Positions 2,785-34,040 of a stretch of DNA of 64,000 bases are shown here, one piece after another. Every line of letters begins with the position of its first letter. Position 1 is the stretch's first letter. Made by a program: the position numbers and the translations under genes. The stretch is taken from the NCBI GenBank assembly GCA_021234155.1, contig JAJEKV010000095.1:1119524-1183523 (forward strand), in the 5' to 3' direction. Source of the stretch: Isoetes taiwanensis (Eukaryota; Streptophyta; Lycopodiopsida; Isoetales; Isoetaceae). Under the pieces are notes generated by a model. It was given only the letters and a program-made list of their open reading frames with translations, searched no databases and was not told the DNA's origin.

Positions 2785-2785
<1 letters not shown>

Positions 2786-5829: not shown

Positions 5830-5948
5830 TCTATAAGATTCACTTTGATTGACAGGACCTTGTTGGTTGTGCCTTGTTGGAAAGTAAATCACGAGATGAC
5901 CGCATCATGTATGTCAGATTGATAGAGAATTTTCCAACTACCCAGTAG

Positions 5949-8236: not shown

Positions 8237-8251
8237 GGAGGGCAACCCTCC
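8237..8251. other. Hairpin at the left edge of the H_a array
   Basis: GGAGGG (8237-8242), CAA, CCCTCC (8246-8251) is a perfect short hairpin next to the start of the pyrimidine array. H_a has lost the family's usual hairpin/CTAG end here; whether this hairpin replaced it is unknown. Confidence 0.45.
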
Positions 8252-9522: not shown

Positions 9523-11915
9523 CTAGTTAAGGTGCCCAGCGTTGCTGGGCATAGCTAGAAACTGTGAATGACATACTGGAGCAATTGTTAAATGTATTTA
9601 TGTTTTTAAAATTAGATAATCAAGCATTCGACCACATTTTGCACTTCCCCTTATCTTTTCCGTTTTCTTTTTTCATTTTGCCTTTGTCTATTATTATTTT
9701 TTCCTATTTTCCCCTTGCCCTTTTCCCTTTTTACATTTTTCAATTTACTTTTTTCTTTTTCCATTATTCCATTTCTTCTTTTTCTCTTTTTTGTTTCTGC
9801 TTACCCATTTTTCCTTTTCTATTTTTCCCTTCCCTTTTCTCCAATTTGTGGTTGCCCTTTTTCCCTTTCCCTGTGCCCTTTCCCCCCTCTCTTTTTCCAT
9901 TTCCCTCATCCCCTTTGCCTCGTGCCCTTCTTTCTAAGTTTTCCTTTCTGCTTTCCCCTTTCCTTTCCCTTTTCCCTTTCCTTCTCCCCACCTTTTATTT
10001 TTTCCCATTTTTCCCTTCCCTTTTCCTCTTTTGCCCAACCCCTTGAGTCTTCCTTTTTCTAGTGCCATTTTCCCTTCCTTTTCCCCCCTCCTTTTTTTTT
10101 TTCCCTCTTTCCCTTTCCCTTTTTCCATGTCCATTTTTTCCTTTGGTTTCCCCTTTCCTCACCCTTTCCCTCTTCCCTTTTTTGCCATGTCCCTTTTCTC
10201 TTCTATTTTTTCATGCTCTTTTTTGGCTCCTCTTTTCCCCTTTCTTCACCTTTTCCTCCTCCCCTCCTTTTCCTTTTTTCCTTCTCTTTTCTTTTTCTAT
10301 TTTGCTCTTTCTTTTTATTCACCTCCCCTTTCTATTTTTCCATTTTACCTCCCGTTTTTTCCCTTTTGCCTTTTTCCATTTGCTTCCACTATTTTCATGC
10401 TTGCCTTTTCCATTTTCAACCTCCTTGCTTTTCCCTTTTTCTATCCCCTCCCCTTTTCACATTCCCTTTCTCATTTTACCTTCCTTTTCTCCCATTCCAT
10501 CCCCTTCGCTTCCCTTTCCCCCTTCCCCTTTACCAATGGCCTTTTTCCCTTCCCTTTTCCTCCTCTCCCGACCCTTTCTCTATTTGGTTTTTTTTCGTGC
10601 CCTTTTTCCCTTCTATTTTTCTCTCTTCCGCCTCCTTTTTATTTCTTTTTTCCCTTTCTTTTTCTCATGTCTTTTTTTCCCTTCCCTTTATTTCTCTTCC
10701 CCTTTTTACAGTGCCATTTATTCCTTCCCTTTGCCCACCCTTTCCCTCTTTCCTTTTTTTCATAGTCTTTTTCTTACCCTTTGCTCCCTCATTTGTTCTT
10801 TTCCTTTTCCCTTTCCCCTTTCCTCCCTCCTTTCTCTTCCTTTTCTCCGCTTCTCTCCTTCTTTTCTCTTCCTCTTTTCCCCATGCCCTTTTTCCCTTTT
10901 GCCCCTCCCCTCGCTTTTTCCTTTTACCCTTTCCATCCCTTCTCTCCTCCCTTTTTCTCTTTCTTTTTTTTTCGTGTCCTTTTTCCCTTCTTTTTTTCTC
11001 CTTTCCCCACATTTTTTCTCTCCCCCTTTTCCTTTTTTTTTTATTGAAGGCGACTATTTATATTAAGTATAGGTTAAATATACAAAAAGAACCTTTTTTC
11101 CAGGGAAGTGTAACCCTATTTCAGTTTAAGATACTTTTAGAAATCTCCCCCTTTTCCACTGTCCCTTTTCGCTCCCTCCTCCTCTCCCCTTTTTCCCTTT
11201 CCATTTTCCTTTCCTTTTCCCTTTTCCTTTTCCCTTCCCTTCTCTCCACCCTTTTCCTTATCCCCTTTTTCCCTTCCCTTTTAGTCCTGTCCTCACCCTT
11301 TCCCTCTCTTTTCATAGTGTCATTTTTTCCTTTATTTTCTCTCTTTCTTTTCCTTTCTCTTTTTTGTGCTATTTTCTATTTCCTTTTCCCTTTTATTCGT
11401 GCCTTTTTTGCCTTTCACTTTGGCTTTATCTCCTCCCTTTTCCTCCTTTCCCCACCTTTTTACTCTTCCCCTTTCCCAGTGTTCCTTTTCACTCCCTCCT
11501 CCTCCCCCTTTCTTTTACCTTTCCCTTTTCTTTCCTTTTCCCTTTTCCTTTTCCCTTCCCTTTTCTCTACCATTTTCCTCATCCCTTTTTCAACTTCCCT
11601 TTTACTCCTATCCTCATCCTTTCCATCTTCTCCTTTTCATAGTGTCTTTTTTTTCTTTATTTTCCTTTCCCTTTTTCGTGCTCTTTTCGCTTTCCTTTTT
11701 TCTTTTCTTTCTTTCCCTTTTACTCGTGCCTTTTTGCCTTTCACTTTGCCTTTTTCTCCTCCCTTTTCCTTTTCCCTTTCCTCTTCAGACATTAAAGCAT
11801 GGCCAATCATGGTGGCGGGAAGTCGTGCGATAAATCTCGACCTCTGAATGCAATCGGATGATCTCAGCCATCCAAATTAGGGTTTCATTCATGACATACT
11901 TACGCTATAACATTA
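9523..11915 (-). mobile_element. Helitron H_b (middle of the nest)
   Basis: On plus it starts A|CTAG (9523-9526), with the hairpin GCCCAGC/GCTGGGC (9534-9540, 9544-9550). It holds pyrimidine arrays at 9640-11040 and 11150-11790, then the family 5' region (about 11790-11915) ending GCTATAACATTA. It is interrupted there by H_c, and its last 12 bases (TATAATATAAGA on plus) reappear at 13622-13633. It is inserted between A and T inside the 5' terminus of H_a. It has no transposase gene. Like its relatives it is purine-rich on the TC-to-CTAG strand. Confidence 0.85.
11041..11150. other. Non-array island inside H_b
   Basis: About 110 bp of mixed-sequence DNA (beginning TATTGAAGGCGACTATTTAT) interrupts the pyrimidine array. 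It may be a small insertion or the seam between two arrays. I recognise nothing in it. Confidence 0.5.
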
Positions 11916-13621
11916 CTAGTAATGGTGCCCAGCGTTGCTGGGCATAAGTTGAGAGCCTGTAAATGCTTTGGGATGCAGTGAGAAAAGCCCTATCCCTTTC
12001 CCTTTCCCTTTTGCTCTATCCCGCATTTCATTTTTTCTTATTTTCTCTACTTTTTTTTTTCTTTTCTTTTTTTTTCTCGTCTTTCTCACATGTTTCCTTG
12101 TTTTCCCATCCCTTTCCTTCCCCTTTCCGTGTTCCCGATAACCTTTTTCCCTTCCCTTTTGCTCCTTTCTCCACCTTTTCCCTCTTTCCTTTTTTCTTTG
12201 CCCTTTTCCCTTCCCCTTTCTCTTTTTTTATGCCTTCTCTTTTCCCCACCCTTTTTCCATGTCTTCCCTTTTTCTCAACCTTTTACTCTTTCGCCCTTTT
12301 CCATGCCTATTTTCCCTTCTCTTTTCCTCCTTTTCCCACTCTTTTCCTCCTTTTTTTTTGTGCCCTTTTCCCTTCCATTTTTCTTTTCTCCCTCCCGTTT
12401 TCCATGCCCTTTTTACCTTCCCTTTTTCCATCTCCTCACCCTTTCCCTCTTTCCCTTTTCCATGTTCTCTTTTTCTCTATTTCCCTTTTCCCATGCCCTT
12501 TTTCCCACCCTTTTCTTCTTTCTATTTTTCCCGTGCTTCCTTTTCCTCCTTTTCCCACCCTTTCCCTCTTCCCGTGCAATTTTCCCTTCTTTCAACCCTT
12601 CCTTTTTCTTTTCTCTTTTCCTTTCCTCATGTTCTTTTTCCCTTTCCCTCCCCTCCATCACTCCCCTGCAATGTAAGGTGGTTGGGGGCAGGGCCCAACC
12701 GTGCAATGTAGTGTGGTGTGTGGTCACATGTCCAGTTGGATGCTGCCTAGTGGCGTGACATTAAAACTACTATCTATCTATCTATCTTTCCCTTTTTTCC
12801 CATTTCCTTTTCTTGATGGATTTTTTTTCTTTCCCTTTTCCTCCTTTGCCGATCCTTTTCCTGTGCACTTTTTCCCTTCCTTTCCCTTTTCCATGCCTTT
12901 TGCACATTTGTTTTATTCTCTTATTTCCTATACCCATTTTCCTCTTTTCCCCACCCTTTCTCTTTTGCCCATTTTCTTTTCCCATTTTTCTTTTTTCCCT
13001 TTCTTCACCATTTTCCTCTTCCCTTTTCTCTCATGCCCTTCCCCCCTTCCCTTCCCTTTCTTTTTCCTTGTGACCTTTACCTAGGTTCCCTTTCCCCCTT
13101 TTCCCTTTCTTTTTTCTTTCTTCTCACTTTCCCTTTTTCTATGCCCCTTTTCTTTTCCCCTCTCCCTATCCATTTCTTGTTCCTTTTCTTATCTTTCCTC
13201 ATTTTTCCAACCTTTCACTCTTCCCCTTTTCTTGATGCGTTTTTTCCCTTCCCTTTCCCTCTCTTTTTTTTTCCCTTTTCCTATGCCATTTGTCCCTTCC
13301 TTTTTCCTCTTTTCTCAACGCTTCTCTTTTTCCCCCTTTTCCCATGCTCCTTCCTTTTCCCATGCTTTTTTTCTCCTCCCCTTTTCCATGTTTTTTTTCT
13401 CCTCCATTTTCTCCTTCTTTGAACCTTTTCCTCTTTCCTTTTTTTTTTCATGCCCTTTCCATTTACCTTTTCCACTTTATCTCTTCCTCCTTCCCTCGTG
13501 CCCTTTGCCCAGGTTCCCTTTCCCTTTTTCATTTTCCATGCCTTTTTCTCTTCTCTTATCCCCACCCTTTTCCCTTTTCCTTTTACCCTTTTCCCTACGC
13601 TATAACATTATAATATAAAGA
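11916..13621 (-). mobile_element. Helitron H_c (innermost of the nest, complete)
   Basis: Left end on plus: A|CTAG (11916-11919), hairpin GCCCAGC (11927-11933) and GCTGGGC (11937-11943). Right end: CGCTATAACATTATAATATA then AAGA|T, the reverse complement of a TCTTT... 5' terminus (13620-13621). It is inserted at A|T inside the 5' terminus of H_b. Its interior is a pyrimidine array interrupted by a 117-bp GATA-tailed element (12670-12786). No protein-coding capacity was seen; the long frames here are array artefacts. Confidence 0.88.
12670..12786 (-). mobile_element. Mobile GATA-microsatellite element, copy 1
   Basis: This 117-bp insert in the H_c array has a matching empty site in the paralogous H_a array: CCCCTGC|TTCCC at 8468/8469. 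A few bases of the target (TTCCC) seem to be lost. On minus it reads (GATA)n, then AGTAGTTTTAATGTCACGCC, then a stem-loop (GGTTGGG 12680-12686 with CCCAACC 12694-12700), flanked by ACATTGCA repeats. Two longer copies lie at 44607-44862 and 53081-53311. Microsatellite plus 3' hairpin recalls HINE-type helentron derivatives, but no autonomous partner or CTRR end is visible. Confidence 0.75.
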
Positions 13622-13646
13622 TATAATATAAGATAATATAAGAAGA
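13622..13646. other. Two stacked orphan 5' Helitron stubs
   Basis: Directly after the 5' terminus of H_c come TATAATATAAGA (13622-13633) and TAATATAAGA(AGA) (13634-13646). These are the terminal 12 and 10-13 bases missing from H_b and H_a, in the order expected for H_a containing H_b containing H_c. They prove nesting rather than simple head-to-tail repetition. Confidence 0.8.
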
Positions 13647-13868
13647 TTGGGTCGTATAAAAACCACAAGTTGAGATTCCATTAATTGCAAGTAAAAGATC
13701 ATAATTAACCTCATGGTATACAAAATGATTTTGGTACTAAGAGACAAATATTATAAGAATCTTTTTCGTTTGATATGCTATGAATCAAGTTGTTTTAACA
13801 TTTAGCTCTTCATTTAGCTTCCACAAACATTTAGGTATGGACAACAATTGCATATTGATGTCATACAT

Positions 13869-14301
13869 GCATTAATTACAAGGGCCCTTGGGTAAGTCAA
13901 AGTTATTAAATATAGGTGACTGCATTAATTACAAGGGCCCTTGGGTAAGTCAAAGTTATTAAATATAGCTGACTTGCATTGCATTAATTACAAGGGCCCT
14001 TGGGTAAGTCAAAGTTATTAAATATAGGTGACTTGCATTAATTACAAGGGCCCTTGGGTAAGTCAAAGTTATTAAATATAGGTGACTTGCATTAATTACA
14101 AGGGCCCTTGGGTAAGTCAAAGTTATTAAATATAGGTGACTGAATTAATTACAAGGGCCCTTAGGTAAGTCAAAGTTATTAAATGTAGGTGACTTGCATT
14201 AATTACAAGGGCCCTTGGGTAAGTCAAAGTTATTAAATATAGGTGACCGCATTAATTACAAGGGCCCTTGGGTAAGTCAAAGTTATTAAATATAGGTGAC
14301 T
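13869..14301. repeat. Minisatellite, 8 copies of a 53-58 bp unit
   Basis: Copies start at 13869, 13922, 13981, 14035, 14089, 14142, 14196 and 14249. Each begins GCATTAATTACAAGGGCCCT (minor variants), contains the palindrome AAGGGCCCTT, and ends ATATAGGTGAC. The copies are more than 95% alike by eye. The unit's end (TATAGGTGAC) is also the start of the flanking repeat beside H_d, so the array probably grew from that sequence. Confidence 0.95.
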
Positions 14302-14343
14302 GCCCCATGGGGACCTCGTGTGGTATGTCAAAACTATTATATA

Positions 14344-15825
14344 CTAGAAATGGAGCCCAGCGTTGCTGGGCATAGCTAGGACTGGAGCAAATTGTAGATG
14401 AATTCACGTTCTTAATCACACAATTAGTCCACCTCCCCTTCCTTTTTATTTTTTCTTTTCCTTTTACGCTTCGATGCCCTTTTTTTCCTTCCTTTTTTTT
14501 TATTTAGCTTTTTTCTTTTTCCGCTCTTCCATTTCTGCCAACTTCCTTTTCCCCTTTTTGTTTTCCCCTTCCATTTTTATTTTTTTAATTTCGCAATCTA
14601 TTTTCTCCCATTTCTAGTTGCCCTTTCCTTTTTCCTTTTTTCACACTTTCTCCACCCCTTTTCCTTTTTCCTTTTTTGCTTCCTTTTCCATTTTTCTATT
14701 CCCTCCTTTTCCCTTTTTTCTTTTTTCTATTTTTCTCTTCTTTTTTGTTCTCTTCCCCTCCACTTCCTATTTTTCTATTTTACCCTTATTTTTTCCTCAT
14801 TCCCTTTCTTCTCCTCCCCATTTCACTTCCCCTTTTCCTTTCATCTTTTATCCTTTTCTTTTTCTCCGCTCCCCTCTCCTCTCCTCCCCTCCTCTTTGCT
14901 TCGCTTCCCTTTCTCCTTTCCCTTCCAATGGTCTTTTTCCCTTCTTTTTTCCTCCTTTCCCAGCCTTTTCTCTCTTCCACTTTTTCCTGTACAATTCTTC
15001 CCTCCCATATCCCCCTCCCTTTTCGTTTTCCTTTTCTCTTCCCTTTTCCCATATCCCTTTTCCCCACCTATTTTTTCTTCTCTTTTTCCCAGTGCCCTTT
15101 TTGCCCTTTCCTTTATTTTCGTGCCTTTTTTCCTTTCTTTTCCTCCTCCTTTGTTCTTTTCCCTTTCCTTTTTTCCATACCTTCCCTTTTTCCCTTTCCT
15201 CACACTTTCCCTCTTTCTTTTTTTTCCCTTCACTTTCCCCCCTTCCTTCTTCTAGTTTTCTCTATGCCCTTTTTTCTTCCCTTCCCCGATTCTTCCTCTC
15301 TTTTTCTTTTCCCTTTTCCTTTCTCGTCTCCCCTCCCTTTTTCTCTTTCCCTTTTCCCGTGTCTTTTTTCCCTTCCCTTTCGCCTTTCCCCACATTTTTC
15401 CTCTTCCCCCTCCCAGTGTCCCTTTTCACTCCCTCCTCCTCCCCCTTTCCTTTTTTCCTTCCCTTCTCTCTACCCTTTTCCTTTTTCCCGTACCTTTTAC
15501 TCCTGTCCTCACCCTTTCTCTCTTCTCCTTTTCGCAGTGTCTTTTTTTTCCTTCCTTTTCTCCCTTTCAATTTCTTTCCCTTTTTCTGTGCTCTTTTCCC
15601 TTTTATTTTCCCTTTTCCTTCTTTCCTTTTTACCCATGCCTTTTTGCCTTTCACTTTGCCCTTTTTTCCTCCCTTTTCCTTTTTCCTTTCCCTTTTCAAG
15701 GCATGGCCAATCACAGTGGTAGGAAGTCGTGCGATAAATTTCATTCTTCGGATGCAATTAGATGATCTCAACTGTATAAATTAGGGTTTGATTCATGACA
15801 TACGCTAAAACTTTATAATATAAGA
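14344..15825 (-). mobile_element. Complete Helitron H_d with a surviving empty site
   Basis: Left end on plus: A(14343)|CTAG (14344-14347), hairpin GCCCAGC (14355-14361) and GCTGGGC (14365-14371). Right end: GCTAAAACTTTATAATATAA then GA|T(15826). The same host sequence without the element is at 41131-41150 (TTATTATATA|TAGGTGAC), so insertion between A and T with no duplication or loss is seen directly. The interior is a pyrimidine array (14430-15690) and a conserved 5' region. No transposase is encoded. Confidence 0.93.
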
Positions 15826-16184
15826 TAGGTGACCGCCGTGGGGACACTAAGTATCTAGTGCCAGCAAATCGTTGTTACATTACAATTGACCTACTTAATA
15901 AAGATGCCATTTGTTGCTAGAGTGCAATATTATACTGCTGTGTAGAAGTCCCCTACATAGCGGAATGGAAGTAGGGCCGCACCATTCCACGTGACTAGCT
16001 GCTTAGGTTTTTTTTTTCAGGGTTGCGACTGCCATAGTTTTTCTATTCGAAGATCTTGACCTGCTTTGGATTCGATTCAGTGGAATGGTGCTTTGGATAT
16101 GGATTTTAATATTTCATTGATTGTTGTTTGCAAGTTATATGGAGTCGTCATTTTTACCTCTTCCCTAGAACCTATAAATATTTA
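15826..16184. other. Host repeat between H_d and H_e (copia-type LTR-like DNA)
   Basis: This segment (GACCTACTTAATAAAGATGC near 15889, CCCCTACAT near 15951, TTATATGGAGTCGTCATTTT near 16134) is repeated nearly unchanged at 41141-41500. With 18324 onward it forms one end of the copia/LINE composite. Its position beyond the 3' end of the minus-strand copia relic suggests LTR, but clean LTR borders were not found. Confidence 0.5.
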
Positions 16185-18323
16185 CTAGTAATGGTGCCCA
16201 GCGTTGCTGGGCATAAGTTGAAAACCTGTATGGAAGGAAACATGTTCAGCTCAACTCCCTTTCATAAATCTTAGATAATGGAATTTAAGCTCAAAAGGTT
16301 TTTGTCCACTCGAGTATCGTTTCCATTTCTCTTTGCCTTTTGCTCTATCCCGCATTTCCCTTTTTTCTTTTCTTTTTTTCCCATTTTCCTACACACTTTC
16401 CTTTTTCTTTTTCCCTACACATTTTCTTTTCTTTTTCCCTTTTTCCTTTTCCCCTTTTCTTTTTATCCCGCTTTTCCCTTCCCTTCCCTTTCCACTTCAT
16501 GTTCTCCTTTTTCCCTTTTCCCTTTTTCTGACATTTTTTTTCCTTCCCTTTCATCCTTTCCAACCCTTCCCCTTTTTAATGTACCCTTTTTCCCTTTCCT
16601 TCCCCCTTCCTTTTCCTTTTCTATTTCCTTTTTTCTATGCCGTTTTTCCCTTCATGTCCTTTTTCTTCCTTTCTGCACCTCTTCCCTTTTTTCTCGTGCC
16701 CCTTCTCCCTACCTTTTCTTTTTTATTTTACATTGTCCTATGCTCTTTTTCCCTTCACTTTTTTCTTTTTTCTCACCCTTCCTCTCTTTCTCTTTTCATG
16801 CCCTTCCCCTCCTCTCTTTTTTCATTTCCCTCTTCCCCATTCCTCGTGCCATTTTTTCCTTTTTCCCCCTTTTTTATGTGCCCCTTTTCTTCTTTTTTCG
16901 CACCCTCTTCCCGTTTTCTTCATGCCCTTTCTCCCTTTCCTTTTTTTTTTCCCTTGTGCCGTGCTTTTTTTCCCCACTTTTTCATTTTTCTCACCCTTTC
17001 TCTCTTCTCTTTTTCATGTCATTTTCCCCCTCTCTTTTCTCATTTCCCTCTTCCCCATTCCTCGGGGCCTTTTTTTCTTCCTTTTTCATCCTTTCCTCTC
17101 TTCCCGTGTCCTTTTTCACTTTCTTCCTCCCTTTCCCTTTCCTTTTCATTTTTTCTTTCCTTTTCCCTTTTCCCCGACCTTTTTCTCCTTTCTCCATCAT
17201 CTTTCTCTTTTCCCTGTGCCCGTCCCTCCTCCTTTTTTCTTTTTTCTTTTCGCTTTTTCCATGCTCTTTTTCCCTTCTTTTTTCTCCTTTTCTCACCTTT
17301 TCCCTTTTCCCTGTGGCATTTTTCCCTTCCCCTTCCCATTTTCCATTTCCCTTCCCCCTTTTCCTCGTGCTCATTTTCCCTTCCCATTTCCCCTTTCTGT
17401 ATTCCCTTTTTTTCTCTTCTCTTTATCTTTTTGAATGCCCTTCTTCCCTTCACTTCTCTACATCATTCTCCTCTTCCCCTTTTTTCGCTTCAATTTTCCT
17501 CCTTTCCATACTCTTATCCCTTCCTCACCACTTCATTCCTTCCCTTTTTCCCTCTTCCCCTTTTCCCCTCTTCCTCGTGTCTCTTTGCCTTTTCCTTTTC
17601 ATCTTTCCACCCCCCCTTTTTCTTTTTCCTTTCCCTAACTTCCCCCCTTTTCCCGTGCCCTTTTTCTCTTTTCTCCCCTCCTTTCTTTTCCTTTTCTCTT
17701 TCCCTTTTCCATTACGCCCTTCCTTTTTCCCCACCTTTTCCATGCGCTCCTTTTCCTCCTTTCTCTATCCTCCTCTTCTTTTCCATTTGAGCGTTCTCAT
17801 TCATTTTTTTTTCGTTTTACTTTTTTCATGCTCTTTTTTCCTTCCTTTTTCCCCTTTTCTCAACCTTTCCCTTTTGCCCTTTTCCCATCTCCCTCTCCCC
17901 TTTTCTAAATGCCCATTTTCCCTTCCCTTTTTCCCTTTCCGCATGTCTTTTTTTCTTCCCCTTTCGCTTTTCCAATGCCCCTTTTCCCTTCCCTTTTCCT
18001 CCTTTCCCCACTCTTTTCTCATTGCCCTTTCTCCCTTCCTATTCCTCTCGCCCCTCTTTGTTTTCTCTTTCTTTTTCCCTTTTCCCATGCCACTTTTTCC
18101 TTTACTCATCATTTCCTTCTTCCCCCTTTTCCCATGCCCTTTTCCCCTCTTCCCCTTTCCCTCGTGCCTTTTTCCCTTCACTTTTCCTTTTTCATTCTCC
18201 CTTTTCCTTAATCTTCGATATTGCAATAAAATCATCACCGTCCGATTAAGCCAATCAAATCTACATCATTAGATTTAGGGCTTGATGGAAAACGGACACA
18301 CGCTAAAACATTATAATATAGGA
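16185..18323 (-). mobile_element. Complete Helitron H_e with a surviving empty site
   Basis: Left end on plus: A(16184)|CTAG (16185-16188), hairpin GCCCAGC (16196-16202) and GCTGGGC (16206-16212). Right end: CGCTAAAACATTATAATATA then GGA|T(18324). The empty site at 41491-41510 reads ATAAATGTTTA|TTGTTAGACA, giving a precise A/T insertion. The interior is a 1.9-kb pyrimidine array, the longest in the window. The frames of 664 and 485 codons across it are low-complexity artefacts. Confidence 0.93.
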
Positions 18324-18732: not shown

Positions 18733-19797
18733 AAAAAGCATTTATTCATTCAAGAAAAGTGTTCATATAATAATAGTCTATAAATACAATTGAATGTGAG
18801 ATGCAATGGTGCATCCAATGTCTCACTTGTGACCCTCTTGCAGAAATCAACTTCTATGTGTCTTCTAGTAGTGTTGTGTTCTTGTAGTATCCTAGTATAT
18901 TCTTGAGAATAGTTTTTCTATAACATTAATGTAACAGTGTCCCTATTCTCCTTACCCCTTACATTGCACCTAAGGCCATGTAATAGTTGACCAAATGATC
19001 CAACCAATCACTGCACAAGAATTGAAGACCATGTAAGTTTGAACTAGTTGCCTAACCAATCAGTCATGATGTCGAGATAATCACAATAAAATTATAGGGT
19101 TGTATAAAAATCACATAAGTTTATGCCATAATTCTAAGGACAAACCCGGCCCCCATACCCTACCTCCATACAGCACCACCGCTTGCACCAGCACTTTGAA
19201 TAACATTCTTTTCAAACTAAATTTCTGTATATCCGCTTTCACACATTTCCTTTGCAATGCAAAAAAGGCCTTAAGCCCCCCATTTACCCACTGCTCTACT
19301 GTTTGATTCCACCTGAATTTTTTATCCACTAGAAGCCTCGAGTACTTATACGATGTAGCAATCTCTACTGTGTTTCCCTTATATGAAAAACCATAATTCT
19401 TATCTAGGATCTTCCCAAAAAGCACCACCTTAGTCTTGCCCAAGTTCACCTGTAGCCCCCTCGCATCATCAAAAGAGGCTAGGGCATCTAAATGCCTCTG
19501 CATTCCCTCCTTGCTTAGGGCAATCAACAGAATACCATGTTCATATAACAGCAAAACATATCTAGCCACAACTGCACCTTTTTCCCCATACTTCCCCACC
19601 CATTCTTCCAATCCATCAATAAAGATCCCAAAAAGTGTTGGTGACATCGGGCACCCCTGTTTAACCCCCACATCGCTAATCATCTCCTCGCCACATTCCT
19701 CAACAAATGGGGTAGAAAGAGTAACCATATCTCTTTTATATAACATTCGCACCGCATCTTTGTATTCTGCAGGCACCCCTACCCGTTTCAACACAAA
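18733..19797 (-). pseudogene. LINE reverse transcriptase, 5'-truncated, catalytic box lost
   Basis: The minus strand at 19794-19111 encodes 227 residues of a non-LTR reverse transcriptase. It has the GVKQGCPMSPTLFGIFIDGL motif, then the thumb-side GLQVNLGKTKVVLFG and a YKYS.LLVDKKFRW motif. The YADD catalytic box, expected between these, reads YEHG, so the enzyme would be inactive. The protein starts abruptly at 19797, where copia integrase sequence begins, and the ORF ends before the usual zinc-knuckle region. The 18733-19110 part (starting GATAAAAAGCATTTATTC on plus) is probably the 3' UTR. Relics of the same piece are in the copies at 43.3-43.95 and 51.8-52.4 kb. Confidence 0.8.
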
Positions 19798-19827
19798 TAT
19801 TGAGTAAAAGCATATTGAGTAAAAGCA
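19798..19827. repeat. 15-bp tandem repeat at the LINE/copia junction
   Basis: TATTGAGTAAAAGCA occurs at 19798-19812 and 19813-19827. The two paralogous junctions (near 43970 and 52430) have only one degenerate copy, so this is a local duplication in this copy rather than a LINE target-site duplication. Confidence 0.8.
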
Positions 19828-19966
19828 TGTGATTTATAGTCACCACCATTGTCACTTTGCAATCTCTTCAATCGCCTGCCCGTTTGTGTTTCAGCCATTC
19901 CCTTAAGCTCCTTGAACTTAATTAATACCTCAGACTTGTTCTTGAGAATATAAACATGTGTATAAA
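19828..19966 (-). pseudogene. Ty1/copia integrase fragment
   Basis: The minus strand reads YTHVYILKNKSEVLIKFKEL and then ETQTGRRLKRLQSDNGGDYK. This is the copia integrase core with the second catalytic Asp in SDNGG. Copia similarity ends near 19966; the preceding DDFSR segment, visible in the copy at 52.6 kb, is replaced by unrelated sequence. The fragment is fused directly to the LINE relic. The same fusion in three places shows that the chimera formed once and was then copied. Confidence 0.85.
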
Positions 19967-25045: not shown

Positions 25046-25586
25046 GTCATATAGCCCCACACAAATTGCTCAGCTAAAAGCTGATTGATAACGACGCATC
25101 ACTGCACGGCCAAGAAGAACAAGGTTTAAAATGAAACGCACTTATTTAAGAAGTGCGTTTGAAAGATTCCTTTATAAAAATTGGAAACTTGAAAAAAATG
25201 GACAAAATAGGGAGCAAAATAGATTGTTGAGCAAATAGCATTCGAAATACCCCAAAAAAAGCAACATTTTTGAAGCCTTTTCATTTTTTAAGAAGGGCAA
25301 AAAAAAAAAAAGCTTGTTTTGAGGAGAGAGACATTACATTTAAAAACTCATTAAGTATTTGTTGTTGAAAATAGAAGGAAATATAGTTTTGTGTTTTTGC
25401 AAGCTTAATATAAGTACTAAGAAAATCAAACATAGAAAAGAAAGAGTGCGAAATCATGAATCAAAAAAAATTGTTCTAATTAAGCATTGTTGAAGAGACA
25501 AAGTTTTTTAGGTTGAGAAATCTTCATCAAAATATATTGAAATTAAGTAGCACATAGATTACAATGAAAGATAGTTTAAAATCTTT
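25046..25586. other. Anonymous AT-rich DNA
   Basis: No gene or repeat was recognised. There are A-rich stretches near 25255 and 25300. Confidence 0.4.
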
Positions 25587-25997
25587 GTGCGTATAAATTT
25601 ATCACGGGAGGTGGCTCTTCCCGTCCACAGGACTCTCTTTCCCCTTAGGATCGGTCTCTTGCGAGGTTATAATTGCGAGAGGCGCCCCTCCCGATTCAAT
25701 GGTGCAGTGCAGTACATTTCTCGGCTCGAGGCACCACGGGCTCGGATCGGCGAACTCCACCTCCTCATTTCTTCTTCCCGTAAGTGGAATTTTGGATTTA
25801 CGTATATGTGCCTTTTACATCGCCCGACACCATTTTTTGCTCCCAATTCCTCGTTTTCATCGGGGAAAGGATTCACAAGAGCTTATCACGGTCACGATGA
25901 AACTTATTTTGTCGGGTCTATGTCGGCGGAGACAACATTGCGCCCACAGCAAGAAGCAAAGCTGGCTTCAATGGTGCTGAGCGAGAAAATCGTCTAA
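25587..25997 (+). CDS. Unrecognised 136-codon frame, possibly an exon
   Basis: The frame begins beside a lone copy of the TATAAATTTAT motif (25591). It encodes a basic, Ser/Arg-rich product with no domain I know. GC content rises abruptly here relative to 25.0-25.55 kb, and an overlapping 93-codon frame exists. It may be an exon of the transposon-like region that follows, or chance. Confidence 0.2.
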   Translation: MRINLSREVALPVHRTLFPLRIGLLRGYNCERRPSRFNGAVQYISRLEAPRARIGELHLLISSSRKWNFGFTYMCLLHRPTPFFAPNSSFSSGKGFTRAYHGHDETYFVGSMSAETTLRPQQEAKLASMVLSEKIV

Positions 25998-26350
25998 GAT
26001 CCGGTCCCGGTGAGAAAACCACGTATCAAATTATTAATAAGTATTTGTGGCCCGATAATGGGACACCACGGCCTTGTCGGCCAATGGGTCTCTTAATTTT
26101 TGCAAAACCGCCGGGGGCGAAGCGCGTGCGGGGAGGAGTCTTTTCATTTGCGTATTAAAGTGAACCATGGTTTTTTGGCGTCTGCTTATTTGTAAAACCC
26201 TATGTGAAAATGCTTTCGAAACAACTTACTAAGCGCGGACCACCACCATGACCCTTAGCGTTTGTTTTAAGCACGCCAAAGCTTGACACAACAATGAAAT
26301 ATTAGTAAAATAAAAACAAGGAAAATAAGTTAGCTTCGATGTGGTGTGGC

Positions 26351-26482
26351 GGTATAAATTTATACCGGGGTTGCCTTGCGGTATAAATTTATCCACAGTA
26401 TTCTAGCCGATATAAATTTATCTGAGACATTGCCTTGCTATATAAATTTAAACCTTAGGCGGTTGTGGTATAAATTTATACC
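26351..26482. repeat. Palindrome array 1 (5 copies, about 29-bp period)
   Basis: GGTATAAATTTATACC or close variants start at 26351, 26380, 26409, 26439 and 26467. The intervening 12-15 bases differ. The copies at the ends are intact 16-bp palindromes; inner ones are altered on one arm. Confidence 0.9.
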
Positions 26483-26616
26483 GTGGAGTTACTAAAAGAA
26501 AAGCGTTAAATGTTAAGCTTACCAAATCACGGTTTTCAAAGCCGGCATTCTGAGACGGCTCCCATAGGTTTAAGCAGGCATTGTTTGTAGGTCGAATGGA
26601 AAATGATGACCCTCGG

Positions 26617-29420
26617 TTAGCGAGATAAGGTGACTTCCTTGAGGGCCTTCAAAAAGAGTGGACTTTGCGTCGTGAAAGCCTCCTCGTCAAAAGCGTCGTC
26701 CTTAATTTTTGAAACCATAGGGGAATATCGCAATGCATAATGTGAAGTTACGCTTCTCCAAAAGTGTCCCCGACCTCGTGCGGTCACCCTCAACAACTCG
26801 TACATGCGGTCGACCAAGCGTTGTAAATCTTTCATAAAAGTGTCAAAATTTGCTAGTGGCGACCTCCTTTCCTGTTCGATTGCCTTAAGTCTACGCCTCT
26901 CTTCCTTGGCCCTCTGAACCCGGGTTTAAAAATCAGTGCGGGGCCCCTTTTTCTTGTTACGTAAGAATATTGTGAGAAAAAGGCACAAACAAAGAACATA
27001 TTTTTAGCAAAACTTACCCGACCACTAAAGTTAACGGCGTGCTCTCTAATGATACTATCGATTAATTTACAACTTGGGTAGAAAGCTTGCACTCCTCCAG
27101 TCCTCTAGGTTTAAATTTTGCTTCATTAACTTCGGCTGGCGGTGACAATGTCTTCATTTGCAAAGAGAAACATGTTGTAAGACCAGAAAATGTAGAAGAA
27201 ACCACGGCATTGCAAATGTGGCTACGTCTTAGCTTCCTTGGCCATTTTAGATCTAATGTAAATTCCTTGGTACGACTTTTTTCAAAAGGCGAACAAAAAT
27301 TTCTTTGCTTTTTAATCCCCATAGCTGCGTCCGGTACAATGCTCATATTTTTTCTGTTTTAATTCTCCACCCTTTTTGGTTTTCCTGCGAAGACTTTGCT
27401 TGCTCTTTAAGCTCACCATCTTGAACATACAAAAATTCTTTCTTGAAGATCCCACACGTAAATGGACAAAGCGCCATTAGTTTAGTGTTGCTTAAGCGTA
27501 AGAGAATATGTTACCACGATCTACTTTCTAAATCATTATGTATGGTGTGTAGTCGCGGTATAAATTTATCACGATCCACGGATACGGTATAAATTTATGC
27601 TTGACTAAACCGCGGTATAAATTTATCTGCGCGACTAGGGGCGGTATAAATTTATACCTGGTGCCGATTATGATATAAATTTATACCATGCGGACGCGGT
27701 ATAAATTTTATCTGACTTAAACGCGGTATAAATTTATCTGCGACTAGGGGACGGTATAAATTTATACAGTGCACGGCCCGGTATAAATTTATACAGCTGA
27801 CTAGTCTTGGTATAAATTTATACCGTTGGGGCGCGATATAAATTTATAAATCACTATCGCGGTATAAATTTATCGCGGCCCGCGGTATAAATTTATACCG
27901 TCTTGAAGAGCACTTGTAACCGCGCTAAACATACTACAAAACATAGAAGAAGAGCATTTACTTACTTGACCATCTCGAATGCGGTGAAAGTAGTTATCGT
28001 ATTGCTTCTTTGCCATAATGGGCTTCTTATCATAGTCATAGGCGAGGCTGACACTCATCCAGCGGGGCTTTCTCGAAGCTCCTGCGGCTTGTTCTTTTGC
28101 TTTTTAAAATCCTCTCCATACATTTGTTTTAAATTCCCGCGTACTCCGCGTTGCATAAAGCGGATCTTGTCTATTAAACTCATTTTAATCTGAAGTCATT
28201 GTCGAGATTATGACTCACGGCAATGACTTTTGCTTCTTCATCGTTACACCAAGCGTATATATGTGCTTCAGCGGCTCTTCCACACGCCGTTCACGGCTTT
28301 CCTCTTTTGCTAGTTCTTTCCTTGCCTTGTAACTATGTGTGCCTCCAAACGTGGTATGTGTAATCTTGAAGTGACCTTCTTGTAATCTTTTAGTTGGTTG
28401 CCTTTGACTCTGTCCACCATAACAACTAGTGGCGACACATGGGCATGAGGATTTCTTCTCATTCTTTGTTTGATTATAGCCACATGTGCAGCATCTGACT
28501 TCCGGGACCTGTAGCACTCGACCCCATCTTCATTTTAGGTGGCCTCTTAATGGTGCTCAATGTCAAAGAAATAGTTTGCTTTAGCGGTTTTAGTGTCATT
28601 CACCCGGCTTGAGAATAGCACTTGATTTATCTGCGAGGCTTCACAACAATATCTGCTCCGGGGAGCCTACGAAGAGCTTACGTTGACTCCTCTATAGTCA
28701 AAGCCTTTGTGCCTCTAGATTTTTTTTTTGTAGGAGCACTGTGTATCTACTCTGAGGGAATGCTTTCTACCCTTTCCCTTTGTTACCCTTTGGTTCCTCT
28801 TCCTCTTCCTCTTCTTCTTCTACTTCCTCGTCCTTCTCTTCAAACTCTTAGTTAGGGTGGGGTACCACTGGACCTTTGACCAACTTTGTTTCTTAAAAAG
28901 CACTGGCCCGACATCAAAATGTCCACTATATCTGTAATGCGGGGTTAAGTTAGGAAGATGCCGGTATAAATTTATACGTAAAGACACTAAACAATACTTA
29001 CATGGCCACTCTTGTAATTGTCGATACGTACTCATGCACATCTTTGGGTTTGCACATGCTTATTGAAGCATTTTACTTTCAAAACGTGAAGACTTCCCCT
29101 TGTCATGCATGCACTTCATTAAGATTTCATCATCGACCTCTGTAGCAATAAGGTTGACAATTTGCCCGGCGGGGTAATAATCGTCGATCTTGTACTTGCC
29201 CTTCCACGATTGATGACACAAGTAAAGATGCGCCTCGGTGGGTTTGCTCTCTCTTGCACCCCGTGGGCGTTACCGCGTCAATCTTCGGTTCGTAATACGT
29301 GGCTCTATTGGTGCGACCTTTGATGGGCCCCTTGTTTACAAACCTGATCTTGGGGCTGGAAAAAGCGTAAAGAAGGCCATTTTTATGCAAAAAGGAACCT
29401 TTTAAGCCCTTTTGTAACAT
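26617..29420 (-). CDS. Unrecognised multi-exon gene, probably transposon-borne
   Basis: Minus-strand coding-like segments end in consensus donors: RVAM|GTAAGT (exon end 29002), GATGGTCAA|GTAAGT (27966) and GGTCGG|GTAAGT (27018). Segments include TEAHLYLCHQSWKGKYKIDD (about 29240-29180), a Cys cluster CCTCG..CPCVATSC (28490-28425), YDYDKKPIMAKKQYDNYFHR (28040-27980), KLIDSIIREHAVNFSG (27070-27022) and LQRLVDRMYELLR (26828-26790). Frames shift between segments and I could not join them into one protein. No family was recognised. Palindrome arrays lie in the presumed introns. The neighbouring DUF7869-type relic suggests a mobile-element context, but that is inference. Confidence 0.35.
27557..27898. 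repeat. Palindrome array 2 (13 copies, 22-30 bp period)
   Basis: Copies start at 27557, 27586, 27613, 27643, 27672, 27698, 27724, 27753, 27780, 27809, 27835, 27861 and 27883. The core TATAAATTTAT is almost invariant, while spacers of 8-16 bp vary. CTGCGCGACTAGGGG / CTGCGACTAGGGG recurs in two of them. The array lies just inside the presumed intron that starts at 27965 on the minus strand. Confidence 0.92.
28963..28978. repeat. Single dispersed palindrome copy
   Basis: One GGTATAAATTTATACG copy stands alone, about 25 bp inside the presumed minus-strand intron that begins at 29001. Confidence 0.8.
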
Positions 29421-29580
29421 AAAAGCAGTAAAAATAAAGAGTGAAAAAGAGCATAAAATCTACACTAAATTATCACTTTATTTGTGTTATTTAAGCTAAA
29501 AGCGCTTAAAGAATATTCTTTGAAATATTAAGGTTTTGCGACACTTCTTTAAGCACTAGACACCAAGATGGTTACGGATC

Positions 29581-29990
29581 GGTATAAATTTATCTGCTTC
29601 GACACGGCGGTATAAATTTATCTGCGAAACTTCCGATCGATATAAATTTATCTGCGGTGCTTTCGGCGGTATAAATTTATACCGTTCGAAACCGGTCGGT
29701 ATAAATTTATACGCATGGTGCTTTCGGCGGTATAAATTTATACCGTTCGAATTTCCGATCGGTATAAATTTATACCGCCCAGTGCTCGGCGGTATAAATT
29801 TATCGGCGTATTCTGGAGCGGTATAAATTTATACCTTCGAGCACCTAACGGTATAAATTTATACCGATCGAACTATATCGTATAAATTTATACCGCGTGT
29901 TGCAGGCGGTATAAATTTATACCGGTGGCTTCGTGCTCGGCGGTATAAATTTATACCGATCGAAATTACGATCGATATAATTTATACCGT
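29581..29990. repeat. Palindrome array 3 (14 copies, 30-bp period)
   Basis: Copies start at 29581, 29609, 29639, 29668, 29698, 29729, 29761, 29791, 29820, 29850, 29880, 29908, 29942 and 29974, with steps of 28-34 bp. Many are perfect GGTATAAATTTATACC. Spacers fall into recurring types (GGTGCTTTCGG, GTTCGAA..CCGAT, GATCGAA), giving a partly alternating higher-order pattern. Confidence 0.93.
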
Positions 29991-30252
29991 GGGCGCTACA
30001 CTCTAGCGATTAAAACAAAGAGAAACTAGAGCGATGCGGGTAGTAGACTTGCATTGGCCATGGCGGTATAGACCCGCGTATAGGCGTTCGAGAGAGCAAA
30101 TAAGGGGGTATATAAGCGCACCCCTTGGCGCCGACTCCGAGCTAGCATTATATAGAAAATAGGGTGGCAGCGGCAAAGTACCCTCTGCTAAGTCTTGCTT
30201 CATATAAGCTTCTCCATAAAGTTTTCAATACAAGTTAATGCGTGAGTTTTTA

Positions 30253-30395
30253 GGTATAAATTTATACCGCTCTGTTCTATGTTGCCCTCCTCGTATAAAT
30301 TTATACCATCTCAGGTATAAATTTATCTGATCTGCCGCCTTAAGTTTTTTCTTCCTGTATAAATTTATACCAACTCTCGTATAAATTTATACCGT
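30253..30395. repeat. Palindrome array 4 (5 copies, irregular spacing)
   Basis: Copies start near 30253, 30293, 30314, 30356 and 30378, alternately about 21 and 41 bp apart, with T/C-rich spacers. Several begin CGTATAAATTTAT or TGTATAAATTTAT rather than GG. Confidence 0.85.
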
Positions 30396-30399
30396 ATCT

Positions 30400-31480
30400 T
30401 CGAGAGAAAAAAGCTGCCGAGCCTCAACTCTGATTCATGGGCTTCCTCCTGCAATGGCTTTCACACCTCCTCCACGGACACCGGGGAAGTAGCCGCAGAT
30501 ATTCTACATCAGACATTCCAACACCCGGACTCTGTTGAGTTTACTCGGCAAGACCACCTCGGCTTCCACCACCGGTTCAATTTACTCCACCACACCACGC
30601 TCTGAGGCGTCGTACGCCCCCCACCAATGCGTTTCACCCCACCTCGGGCTAGAGAGCTCGGACTACCTCCTCAATTCATCTTAGTGCGTCGCCCATAGTC
30701 CACGTGGTAGGCTCCCTCCACGGAGGCAAATCACACCAACTCCATCCATTTAAGCTAAATGGTACTACAACAAGTGGGGCGGTCGGCGACACGCCAACTC
30801 TGTGTTCTCACGACGCCGGGAGCTGGTCAACTCGTCACCGGCCTCGATTACTTTTTCGAGAGGAAAGCACCTCCCCAGGGCCTTGCCCACATCAAACCTC
30901 TCGGCATCTACAAGTACACCTCATGTTGATCTCTCGGGACGAAGAAACACCTCATGTTGATGTCTCGGGGCGAGGACCTACCAAAGCCACAAGACTCCAT
31001 GTTGAATTCAAAGCCCACGCAAGTAAAAATCTTAAAGCGTAACTTACACAAGGCGGCATGTACAGCCGTTAGAAGAAAGAAACTCATGGGCCGAGGCTCA
31101 CTTGCGGGCAACACATACAAAGCAGCTTGTTGTTCTCAAGCGTTGTTTGCTTAAGATTGGACTAAAGGAATTGAGGTTTGCATTGATAGTTACGGTTCAA
31201 TGACTACGCTAGACCAAAGGGGCTACTTAGCCTTCAATATTAGGCGGATGATGGTGAGAAGTTTACTTACGGTGACTGGTGGCCACGCAGATACGTCAAG
31301 CGGCCTTCAAATTGATTCATGCTTTAGGCGTGAGGCGACTTGACCGCTGAAGAAAAGGCGACAAGAATCGGGCATCAATGACTCTCGCCATTGGGAGGCA
31401 TAACGAATTCATGCTCTTCAATGTGTTTCTGGATGGAAGGTTTCTTTAAGAGTCTTGTGAGAAACTCCCCTAACAGCCCT
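30400..31480 (+). other. C-rich segment, unrecognised frame
   Basis: Base composition changes to C-rich (ACCTCC, CACCACC words) at 30430-30930. A 112-codon frame (30704-31042) encodes a His/Ser/Thr-rich product with no recognised domain. A 31-bp direct duplication (CACCTCATGTTGAT...) starts at 30917 and 30948 within it. It may be the 5' part of the DUF7869-type gene. Confidence 0.3.
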
Positions 31481-31489
31481 ATGTACCGC

Positions 31490-32330
31490 ACTTGGTGACA
31501 ATTTCAGAAACCGAAGTCCTCGCGATAATTATAAGGAGATGTGTGTTGAGGTGGAGAGCGCTTTATGCGCTGCACTCTTGCTTTCGCATTATGCGGAAAA
31601 AGGAGTTTTCTCGGCGTGGCCGTTTCCCTAGAAATAGGATGTCGACATTTTGCAGATTAAAATACCGAGACAAAATGCAGGACACTTCGCACTAAAGTAA
31701 GCTTCGGGCCGTGTTCTTGCCTAGTTCTACGCAAAAGTAGGTTCTTTTCCTAAACATGTTTTCCTTTCGGATGCATTGAAGGGGCCCGAACAATACGAAC
31801 AACAATCTTTGGAAAGGAAAATTAATGAAACATAGGAAGAAAGCCTTTGGAACAACCACTCAACTACATATGGTTATTTATTGGAATGGACGGGAAGAAG
31901 ACCACCTACCACATTTTGTCGTATTGCCTAGGATCTTCTTGAGAAGAAGATTTCATACATATGTTGTTTGGTGCTGTATTTAATGGAAAACTATCTTAGA
32001 GGCATTTTTGAATTATCAAACGTTGGTATGATCCAAATCTCACTGTCACAATATTGAATAAGCTTCTTTCCAATCCTACAGAGACATGTAGGGTTCTGTA
32101 TCTTAATTTAGATAACACGACGAGGGAAATAAGAATGCGGCGTTGTTTGCCCTGCTTGTGCTATGCTAGTAAGAAACAAATCTTCAAGAAGGTGAAGATT
32201 GGTTTTCACCTTGTTAGTCATACACCACGACCAAATTGATGGATGTTACATTAGGTTCTCCTAAGCGTCTTGCTGAAAAAACAAGCACGCGGCCATGATT
32301 GAGGTCATCCAAGATTCCCTGTCGTCCGGA
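31490..32330 (+). pseudogene. DUF7869-type transposon gene, decayed
   Basis: The clearest part (32054-32290) reads VLYLNLDNTTRE, then a damaged stretch, then KKQIFKKVKIGFHLVSHT. After a one-base frame change it continues HDQIDGCYIRFS. LDN..REN, F..V...FL.VGHTH..ID is the hallmark of DUF7869 proteins, encoded by transposon-like elements in algae, early plants and animals; their biochemistry is not established. Upstream, DGKKTTYH-like and LFGAVFNGKL fragments (31890-32000) and a basic frame at 31492-31680 probably belong to it. Frameshifts and stops show it is dead. Confidence 0.6.
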
Positions 32331-33190
32331 CATCGAGTTATTGGAAGAAACTTATGATTTCAAGGAATGGATTTTTGGGAGATCAGCGCTAGGTCCTTTG
32401 TGCTATTGAGCCCATGAGAAACATTACATTTCGGCCTTCAGGATCAAAATTTCCTTGTAGATGGCAAGGCCATCTTACAAGAAGAAGGAAATATGCCACT
32501 ACATCCTTCGCATTTGGCAGCCCGGTAGCGGTATTCAATTCATTCACTTAACATCCCCAATACTAGTTCCATGCTCTCTGCCGGGTATAAATGCCTCTAA
32601 AAAGCTTGAAAGAAATCACAAGAGTAAAAGGAGGAAAGAGCATTTGACTCAAATAAATCATTGGATTGTATTGAGACAAGTATTGATCTGCTCTAACCAC
32701 TTTGGGGAAGCGGATGCTTTATAATTGGCCTCAATTTTTTCTACCGACAGCGTGACATGTTGCAAGCTTCATTACAAGGTCGAAGGCCAGTTACATTCAG
32801 CGGCCATCTAGGCAAACCCTCCTGATACCAGTTGAGAATCCAAGAGAACATGTAGAGATATTGGCTGGCTCGGATAGAGATGGCGGAGTCATATTACCGC
32901 GGCTGAAGCGCCGCGAAGCATGAAGTTACTTTCGAGTATACGAGTTCGATCTCTGAGATTCGAGAAAGGAATGCTCATAAATTTGTCGGCTAATGTGAAT
33001 GAATCACGGGAGGCCATTACGGCTAGCTAAAATCTTTGGAGAATGCTCGAGAGGATGGAATTCCCTCAATTAAAATTACCTTTGGATGAGCATTTATTTG
33101 CCAATGCTTTGATGGGAGTTATACTTTGGAGATAAAAGCGAGGAGTGGGAAAGAGAGCTAAGTCCAAAACAAGCAACTAACATCATAGAT
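32331..33190 (+). other. Probable 3' part of the DUF7869-type relic
   Basis: Scattered coding-like stretches (FKEWIFGR near 32350, RPSGSKFPCRWQGH near 32440) are on the same strand but separated by stops. An 87-codon frame (32461-32724) is in another frame. No domain was recognised. Confidence 0.3.
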
Positions 33191-34040
33191 CTAAGCGGAA
33201 GTAAAAGTTCTTGCATATGACTTTGTTACATTTGCTTTGCTAATAGGATTCACGTGGTCCTCCAACTTTAATAAAAGGTCGGCATGTGGATTAGACAAAC
33301 AAGCCAAAAGGTGGCCAAAAGATGATGATGAAGACTCACTTGTAGGCAGGTGAGGAAGAAGATCGTTCGAGTACATCGATCTTTGAGTGAAGGCGAGGAT
33401 GAAGGCTCGGTGTCGGGGAATAAATGAGTAGAGGATGAGATGCATCCACGATCTTCTTTGCAAAATGTAAGTTTGTCAGATGGCTTCGAACATGTAAGAA
33501 ACGAGAAAGTCACGGTGATGAAGTTATACGTCAAAATATCCTATATTTTGACAATTTGTTCATAATTTTGTACAATTTTCCTGGCTTAGCAGATATATCA
33601 CTTCTTTGTCCTCTACCCTTGCTATTTTTTTATTGCCCTTTTTGCTTACACTTTATAAAAGTAACTATTTTTTGTTCTAGTTTAGGAGGATGAAAATTGC
33701 TGTTTCTAAAATTTTTGCGAGTTATGTTCAATCAACCCCTCAAAAATGGTACCTATAAATTATGAAATTGTCACACTGTCACAAAAATCTTAAAAATAGA
33801 CTTTTTAAGGGAATTTTTAGGGAATCTTTCAAAGATTCCTTTGAAGTCGTTCCAGCAAATAGTCGTTTCATTTTAAACTTTGTTGAAGCCAGAAATTAAA
33901 AGCGGGTCTTGGTATTAAAGGAAAAAATTGACCTTAGAAAGGCTACATTAAAGCAGTGATGTACTATTAGCACCCTTATGAGGAGCTTCGCCCATGCTAC
34001 ACAAGTCCGGGGGCCTTCACGGCACAAAAGGACATAAATG
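33191..34040. other. Mixed DNA, acidic coding-like stretch then AT-rich
   Basis: Plus strand 33280-33450 reads a short acidic stretch (DDDEDS) ended by stops. 33530-33960 is AT-rich with nothing recognised. From about 33970 a GC-richer stretch leads into the pentanucleotide tail at 34043 and is probably a LINE 3' end. Confidence 0.35.

Follow-up and report, generated by a model that had tools for sequence, protein, structure and literature searches.

Clade-specific palindrome arrays in an Isoetes taiwanensis transposon family with a DUF7869 transposase and a candidate ParB-like methyltransferase gene

A 16-bp palindrome, GGTATAAATTTATACC, is repeated in several arrays within a few kilobases of contig JAJEKV010000095.1 of Isoetes taiwanensis, and the question raised by this locus is which protein reads it. 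The DNA analysed here, referred to as the window, is a stretch of 64,000 nucleotides of that contig. The arrays sit inside an 8,767-bp DNA transposon copy that belongs to a dispersed family with a DUF7869 transposase gene and a divergent gene for a methyltransferase with a putative ParB-like region. Sister clades of this family, with the same genes, have different palindromes at the same place, and this is the new finding. The arrangement of the palindromes, their persistence in derivatives and their clade specificity are direct observations. The sequences suggest that the palindromes are most likely bound, as private sites, by the ParB-methyltransferase that the element itself encodes, serving self-regulation and self-marking.

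Palindrome arrays inside a dispersed transposon

When up to three mismatches are allowed, GGTATAAATTTATACC has 35 matches in the window, all at 25590–30393, compared with a mean of 0.51 and a maximum of 4 in 100 dinucleotide shuffles of the same DNA. If instead a 12-bp core is allowed two mismatches, 37 units are found. The figure of about 39 given in the initial annotation includes a few more degenerate units; the copies themselves are real, and their groups lie where they had been placed (Table 1). The modal spacing is 29 bp, which agrees with the earlier estimate of 28–30 bp for the main arrays. Array 4 differs, with its units spaced 39/22/42/22, and a spacing near 40/21/42/21 is retained there in all seven copies of the element that were compared. 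A genome-wide search with mapping of clusters, as had been proposed, found 7,218 exact 16-mers in 1,658,258,908 bases and no occurrence of the reversed word; palindromes of this kind are called class A below. The first six class A clusters fetched all lie in transposon elements.

The link to a transposon, which had been raised as a precedent, is borne out by the boundaries of the element around the arrays. DNA searches with stretches of the window found dispersed relatives that end sharply together at 25118 and 33884; the best candidates were scored, so that counts of relatives are lower bounds. Both ends consist of a 21-bp inverted repeat, AACAARGTTTAAAATGAAACG, beginning AACAARG, and a short hairpin-like sequence follows just after the left one. 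The repeat occurs 781 times in forward and 815 times in reverse orientation in the genome, and its reversed control not at all. Exact 4-bp target duplications (GAAG, AAAT, ATAG, TTGA, CCTG, CTGA and AATG) are present in seven of the ten class A elements for which both flanks were available; one of the other three has a 5-bp repeat and two have no duplication. An eleventh copy (L012), its left end replaced, was excluded from this count.

Among the six first-fetched clusters, four (L005, L007, L009 and L010) have inverted repeats at both ends of the element, L008 has the left repeat only, and L006, 70–74% identical inside, has no recognised repeat. Palindrome positions are retained across the seven copies and in L008, which is 75–77% identical, with the exception of array 2, shrunk in L008 to one imperfect unit. 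The palindromes also persist in gene-less derivatives. L005, L007 and L010 are derivatives of ∼2.2 kb, mutually 89–91% identical, with interiors largely unrelated to the window element; those compared with it (L005 and L007) share its first 65 bp, its last 156–172 bp and the palindrome cluster. All three retain a single palindrome near 505–510 (in L005 and L010 an imperfect one), another near 1217 and a cluster at 1356–1625. In L009, a derivative of 3.4 kb, eight palindromes are retained.

The initial annotation had described the core as far better conserved than the spacers. This holds between units of class A. Among 92 units from six loci, selected by their central TAAATTTA, the ten further positions of the 18-bp motif CGGTATAAATTTATACCG carry 0.6–1.85 bits of information and the positions outside it 0.01–0.25 bits. 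In class B, introduced below, the flanks of 34 units selected by TCCGGA also carry 0.1–1.1 bits, which makes the edge of the motif less distinct.

Between copies of the element the claim did not clearly stand. In six copies, the core has 0.031 substitutions per column; two A/T-only control sets taken from other parts of the element have 0.0425 and 0.052, and all remaining A/T positions 0.051. Gaps are more frequent in the core (0.055 per column compared with 0.016–0.023). The window base is retained in other copies at 0.93 in the core compared with 0.78, 0.72 and 0.90 in controls, a difference qualified by the selection of units as matches. For the spacers the value is 0.22, which is too high because of misaligned array units. 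Selection on the core, tested against the A/T-only controls through copy-to-copy divergence, is therefore not clearly supported, and in a noisy assembly the between-copy conservation is no clear proof of it. The case for conservation accordingly rests on the unit-to-unit information of class A and on the other clades.

The assembly was built from nanopore reads and polished with racon and pilon, as stated in the part of its description available to us (PMC8566536). Pairwise comparison of the window element with L011–L016 gives 192–295 gap openings per pair, even though the first 90 bp as printed are identical in six of the seven copies, which suggests that uncorrected nanopore errors remain in the repeats of this assembly. 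TATACC and TATCTG variants in otherwise equal copies likewise look like base-calling noise at G/C positions.

Could the arrays then be an ordinary minisatellite or satellite with no function? Parts of them do show higher-order duplication, with periods of 59 and 111 bp and 73–82% matches, so that tandem duplication did enlarge them, and the informative class B flanks fit the same explanation. Against it, the information in class A ends abruptly with the 18-bp motif, relatives of ∼76% (L008) and 70–74% (L006) identity still have their arrays in the same positions, and each of four clades has a motif of its own at the same place. A simple satellite with conserved spacers, named in the initial annotation as the contrary case, is likewise disfavoured by the low information of the class A spacers and by the location of the arrays inside dispersed elements. 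We regard a functionless repeat as scarcely credible.

Different palindromes in sister clades

All classes of palindrome have the form TAT-N6-ATA, with AAATTT, GAATTC, TCCGGA or GCGCGC at the centre. A constant TAT/ATA frame around a palindromic 6-bp centre fits a symmetric protein whose outer contacts are fixed, the centre varying between lineages, and the suggestion in the initial annotation that a dimeric protein binds here is supported to this extent, the sites looking like those of such a protein. Class B was read from five stretches of 10 kb each (L029–L033), with sites like AAAGTGTAT-TCCGGA-ATACACTTT. Class C is represented by L034, in which GGTAT-GAATTC-ATACC sites with mixed centres occur together with one class A site, and the class D site is CTAT-GCGCGC-ATAG. 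Exact counts in the genome are 7,218 for class A, 2,585 for class B (as an 18-mer) and 13 for class C, the reversed words giving zero each; among the matches listed, a transposase or methyltransferase is found no more than 6 kb away from 5 of the 13 class C sites.

The left ends of class B elements (L029–L032; AACAAGGTTGCAAATTAAACG and variants) resemble class A ends and have a short inverted repeat just inside, as on the class A left. The target duplication of L032 is also 4 bp, AATT.

A systematic sample was drawn from 38 more DUF7869 loci, taking every fourth row of the 150 best matches (or the next row where a locus had already been fetched) and reading 1.5 kb upstream of each; being composed of best-scoring matches, it may miss rarer or more diverged clades. 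Class A palindromes were found in 8 of these upstream regions, class B in 15, class C in 1 and class D in 2, and none in 12. Twelve of the 15 class B regions have the exact TCCGGA centre; L049, L057 and L067 have only variants. Class D is based on L062, with three exact sites in 1.5 kb and a fourth in L111, and on L055, with one exact site and one whose centre is GCATGC. Further upstream in L062 the methyltransferase and ParB-like gene is also present.

In a tree of 42 DUF7869 domains (the 38 sampled plus L008, L029, L033 and L034, with stops written as X), the rows of any one class, from A to D, are confined to a single clade, A neighbouring C and B neighbouring D. Two loci counted as having no palindrome among the 38 were labelled otherwise here: L071 as B, on the basis of half-sites, and L056 as E. 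The ten remaining rows without a palindrome are scattered among these four clades, and the only E row is placed inside the B clade. The labels require 13 changes on the tree compared with a mean of 21.2 when shuffled, none of 200 shuffles being as low, a result to which near-copies contribute. Identity between the DUF7869 domains of different classes is 65–77%.

A fifth class, CCCAT-TCTAGA-ATGGG in L056, was considered and dropped, since its copies look duplicated (two of the three, separated by 358 bp, agree in all 14 flanking bases printed to either side) and L056 lies within the class B transposase clade. The repeated palindrome of L056, CATTCTAGAATG at 258, 816 and 1174, is possibly another class.

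These differences bear on the idea that the palindromes are sites for a host transcription factor or silencing factor, captured by the element. Their position flanking a divergent promoter region would suit such a factor. On the other hand, clades within one host use different palindromes, and all six first-fetched class A clusters are inside elements; we consider a captured host site very unlikely.

The spacing of the sites, compared in the initial annotation with helical turns, tends to follow the DNA helix in class A. For 192 class A spacings from 15 loci the best period between 8 and 14 bp is 10.5 bp (R 0.51), and the 70 spacings outside the 25–37 bp mode give R 0.60 at 10.5 bp, a value equalled in none of 5,000 random sets. 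The class A copies used are related; a less redundant set of five loci and 60 spacings has a broad peak, with R 0.60 at 10.5, 0.57 at 11 and 0.56 at 10 bp. The best period is 13.9 bp for the window copy alone (30 spacings) and 10.2 bp for class C (10 spacings), neither of which shows the phasing clearly. In class B, where most spacings of up to 130 bp (22 of 31) measure 41–42 bp, the best period is 8.4 bp, and helical phasing within this class alone is inseparable from its usual spacing. The claim of phasing therefore rests on class A.

Encoded proteins and candidate readers

As the reading frames of the window copy are broken, the domains of the two genes were read from other copies. The plus-strand, transposase-like protein matches PF25273 (DUF7869), its one good match, with E 1.9e-52 in L008 and 1.9e-51 in L029; the open-licence PubMed Central literature found by our search does not name this domain. 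The minus-strand gene matches PF01555 (E 7e-16 in a piece of L016, 2e-17 in L030), its closest solved chains being the methyltransferases MboIIA (E 1e-8), RsrI and CcrM. In the beta class of N6/N4 DNA methyltransferases a DPPY-like motif precedes an FxGxG motif. In classes A and B the piece with D-I-P-Y or D-L-P-Y likewise comes before the FSGSG piece when the coding strand is read 5′ to 3′, and by this motif order and the PF01555 match the minus-strand protein is a predicted beta-class N6/N4 enzyme. The D in place of S in D-I/L-P-Y presumably indicates an adenine enzyme. From their order and strand, the N-terminal, ParB-like and methyltransferase pieces probably belong to one protein.

Among the best 150 of 9,907 PF25273 and the best 150 of 1,444 PF01555 first-look candidates genome-wide, 24 pairs lie within 15 kb, compared with a mean of 0.4 and a maximum of 3 in 1,000 shifted controls; 22 of the 24 are divergent, as are all 17 within 8 kb. 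Palindrome arrays 3 and 4 fall between the divergent N-terminal regions of the two genes. The remaining sites are between coding pieces of the minus-strand gene, a splice donor of which (GTAAGT) can be read at about 27961–27965, except for the site at 25590, which lies beyond these pieces.

Table 1. Features of the transposon copy in the window.
Feature	Position	Strand	Evidence or remark
Left target-site duplication, GAAG	25114–25117		Equals right flank
Whole DNA transposon copy, 8,767 bp	25118–33884	+	Sharp match ends, 83–90% identity to other places in the genome; terminal inverted repeats
Left terminal inverted repeat, AACAAGGTTTAAAATGAAACG	25118–25138	+	21 bp
Single palindrome	25590–25605		Element position 475, near left end; retained in 7 of 7 copies and L008
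Methyltransferase piece matching L016 S-adenosylmethionine-binding (FSGSG) piece	25718–26183	-	tblastn E 3e-23; frame broken
Palindrome array 1, 5 units	26351–26482		Between methyltransferase-coding pieces
Methyltransferase piece matching L016 D-I-P-Y catalytic motif piece	26554–27003	-	tblastn E 3e-35; frame broken
Palindrome array 2, 12–13 units	27557–27899		Downstream of splice donor of minus-strand gene
Putative ParB-like region	28142–28767	-	tblastn with L008 piece, E 8e-27; frame broken
Single palindrome	28963–28978		Within ∼70-bp intron of ParB-like gene; GTAAGT/TTACAG ends on minus strand
ParB-like/methyltransferase gene, N-terminal piece	29042–29263	-	tblastn with L008 piece, 55% identity, E 6e-23
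Palindrome array 3, 13–14 units	29581–29989		Divergent intergenic region; last unit degenerate
Palindrome array 4, 5 units	30253–30393		Upstream of and overlapping start of transposase N-terminal reading-frame match
Transposase N-terminal, proline-rich part	30365–31150	+	tblastn E 4e-30; frame broken
DUF7869 (PF25273) transposase core and C-terminal part	31712–33308	+	tblastn with L008 and L034 pieces; frame broken
Right terminal inverted repeat, AACAAAGTTTAAAATGAAACG on minus strand	33864–33884	-	21 bp
Right target-site duplication, GAAG	33885–33888		Equals left flank

Outside the element, a reverse transcriptase fragment (PF00078, E 9e-10) lies at 19114–19833 on the minus strand, and another (E 5e-19) at 414–1286 of L008, beyond the left boundary that the element has there at 1916. 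Three regions of the window (4000–5900, 8100–18270 and 60160–61700) show extreme strand asymmetry, with GC skew up to ∼0.68 in size in 2-kb windows; they contain degenerate polypyrimidine repeats (CCTTTTCC and CATGCC types), from which long spurious reading frames arise, and in the polypyrimidine region a 54-bp tandem repeat occurs eight times at 13868–14301, with 93% matches. Searches of viral and prokaryote collections with the ParB-like region, and of viral contigs with the transposase, confirmed no relative. A weak methyltransferase relative, 29% identical, is seen in an IMG/VR contig (L112, 1739–1999).

That the palindromes are cis-acting recognition sites of a transposon with a DUF7869 transposase and a divergent ParB-like–beta-class methyltransferase, and are bound by the latter, is a proposition that we judge to be evenly balanced. 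In the mechanism proposed, a dimer of the ParB-methyltransferase would bind the phased palindromes and, by occupying several helix-phased sites, could form a multi-site complex on the element. Once bound, it may control the divergent promoter and methylate the element's own DNA, whereby each lineage would recognise itself. Gene-less copies would keep the sites because they depend on them to be mobilised or protected in trans. Of the 38 sampled upstream regions, 22 contain the ParB-like N-terminus, and 21 of these 22 also have a GTAT-N6-ATAC site in the same 1.5 kb, an association due in part to the location of both at the promoter.

Several observations weigh against this proposal. The ParB-like assignment is weak: PHROG profiles of ParB-like proteins match at E 0.004–0.011 for L008 and 0.004–0.018 for L008 and L030 together, none matches in L029, a Pfam search of the element proteins gave no ParB match, and in a profile search of solved structures the ParB-superfamily relative sulfiredoxin appeared only at E 2.3, behind unrelated chains at 0.11–0.49. 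The label is kept because the region is strongly conserved between clades, with 50 invariant columns in six sequences of classes A, B and C (including GG[NT]HS[FY]KAR), and because a similar published element has a named ParB-like domain. Twelve of the 38 upstream regions lack palindromes A–D in the expected form, L071 among them in spite of its ParB-like N-terminus. Conversely, 5 of the 16 samples without a ParB match have a palindrome; for L035 (class C) and L055 and L062 (class D) the N-termini of these classes were absent from the queries, which is not so for L036 (class A) and L057 (class B). In the available part of their description, the bacterial ParB-type nucleases that have been studied, including the ParB-methylase Bce_0392, are reported to have largely sequence-nonspecific activity (PMC5512222). 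Finally, palindrome class is predicted by transposase clade as well, so that the binder could be the transposase.

This last point makes the transposase a serious rival. It may itself bind the palindromes, either in bringing both ends together or in regulating its own promoter, with the methyltransferase as a separate accessory. TNPA binds subterminal motifs in Spm/CACTA elements, and here the palindrome class follows the DUF7869 tree, sites lie just upstream of the transposase gene, and they persist in gene-less copies, which are mobile only with transposase supplied in trans. The placement of the sites speaks the other way: the arrays of the window copy are 1.2–5.3 kb from the left end and not at the ends, many sites are between coding pieces of the other gene, and none is near either terminus apart from that near position 475. 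On balance we think the transposase a possible but rather unlikely reader.

A different role for the methyltransferase would make the palindrome centre its target, each clade's enzyme modifying its own 6-bp centre as a form of self-marking similar to restriction-modification. Type II methylase sites are 6-bp palindromes, as are AAATTT, GAATTC, TCCGGA and GCGCGC, which differ by clade, and the element encodes a probable N6/N4 methyltransferase. The conserved site of 14–24 bp is, however, longer than such targets, and GCGCGC has no adenine, although the D-I/L-P-Y motif suggests an adenine enzyme. We consider this improbable.

Returning to the ParB-methyltransferase as the reader, we tentatively propose a private address code: a fixed half-site with a lineage-changed centre, repeated in helical phase and read by the element's own ParB-methyltransferase, may, inside a single nucleus, mark, regulate or shield only its own copies, including gene-less ones. 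If true, it would amount to a counterpart, carried by eukaryotic transposons, of parS/ParB or of restriction-modification self-recognition, its specificity diverging between competing families.

Comparison with known systems

Subterminal repeats bound by transposases in CACTA elements were the precedent offered in the initial annotation. CACTA/EnSpm elements have CACTA or CACTG termini, target duplications of 2–3 bp, and binding motifs confined to subterminal regions. Membership of this group was rejected and the precedent fails, as neither the AACAARG... ends nor the 4-bp duplication fits. Nor is subterminal placement borne out, the arrays occupying element positions ∼1230–5280 of 8767, at the divergent promoter and between methyltransferase coding pieces. 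What is shared with the TNPA repeats of CACTA/Spm is the presence of many short copies of one motif and a transposon protein as their presumed reader; the ends, duplication length and array placement differ, and the motif here is a long palindrome.

Sola1 elements make a 4-bp target duplication, and the window element shares this duplication length with the Sola superfamily. A 4-bp duplication is also described for Sola2 (PMC3627910). A close likeness by description is to Sola1-1_Ec32 of the brown alga Ectocarpus, which is 21.5 kb long and has on its opposite strand a gene for a ParB-like and N4C/N6A methyltransferase protein; the authors who describe it propose that proteins of this type may bind the transposon that encodes them and modify it epigenetically (PMC12477816). 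The element here has the same opposite-strand arrangement, with a strong methyltransferase match and a weak ParB-like one, but is 8.8 kb long, and the accessible part of the account of Sola1-1_Ec32 contains no palindrome arrays or clade-specific binding sites. ParB-methyltransferase proteins have also been reported in transposons of green and red algae (Iyer 2011 and Petroll 2025, as cited in PMC12477816). By that citation the protein is of the same type; those lineages are others, the host here being a vascular plant. In the excerpts available from the open-licence PubMed Central literature, no description of palindrome arrays or clade-specific sites was found for such elements.

Bacterial parS is a palindrome of 16 bp. 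The likeness to the parS/ParB system consists in a palindrome of similar length and a ParB-like protein putatively encoded beside the arrays; the differences are that the ParB-like region is part of a methyltransferase gene and that its homology to ParB is weak. Bce_0392, a bacterial ParB domain fused to an adenine methylase, is reported to have nonspecific nicking activity (PMC5512222). The fusion proposed here would be of the same kind; the portion of the Bce_0392 description available to us gives no palindromic site.

For the self-binding suggested for ParB-methyltransferases, the palindromes thus offer concrete candidate sites, in a vascular plant. Four clades with the same genes and different palindromes in one genome form a natural experiment that makes the suggestion directly testable. 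The outcome would bear on whether plant nuclear DNA receives N6-adenine or N4-cytosine methylation, on the escape of transposons from silencing, and on how related families avoid cross-mobilisation.

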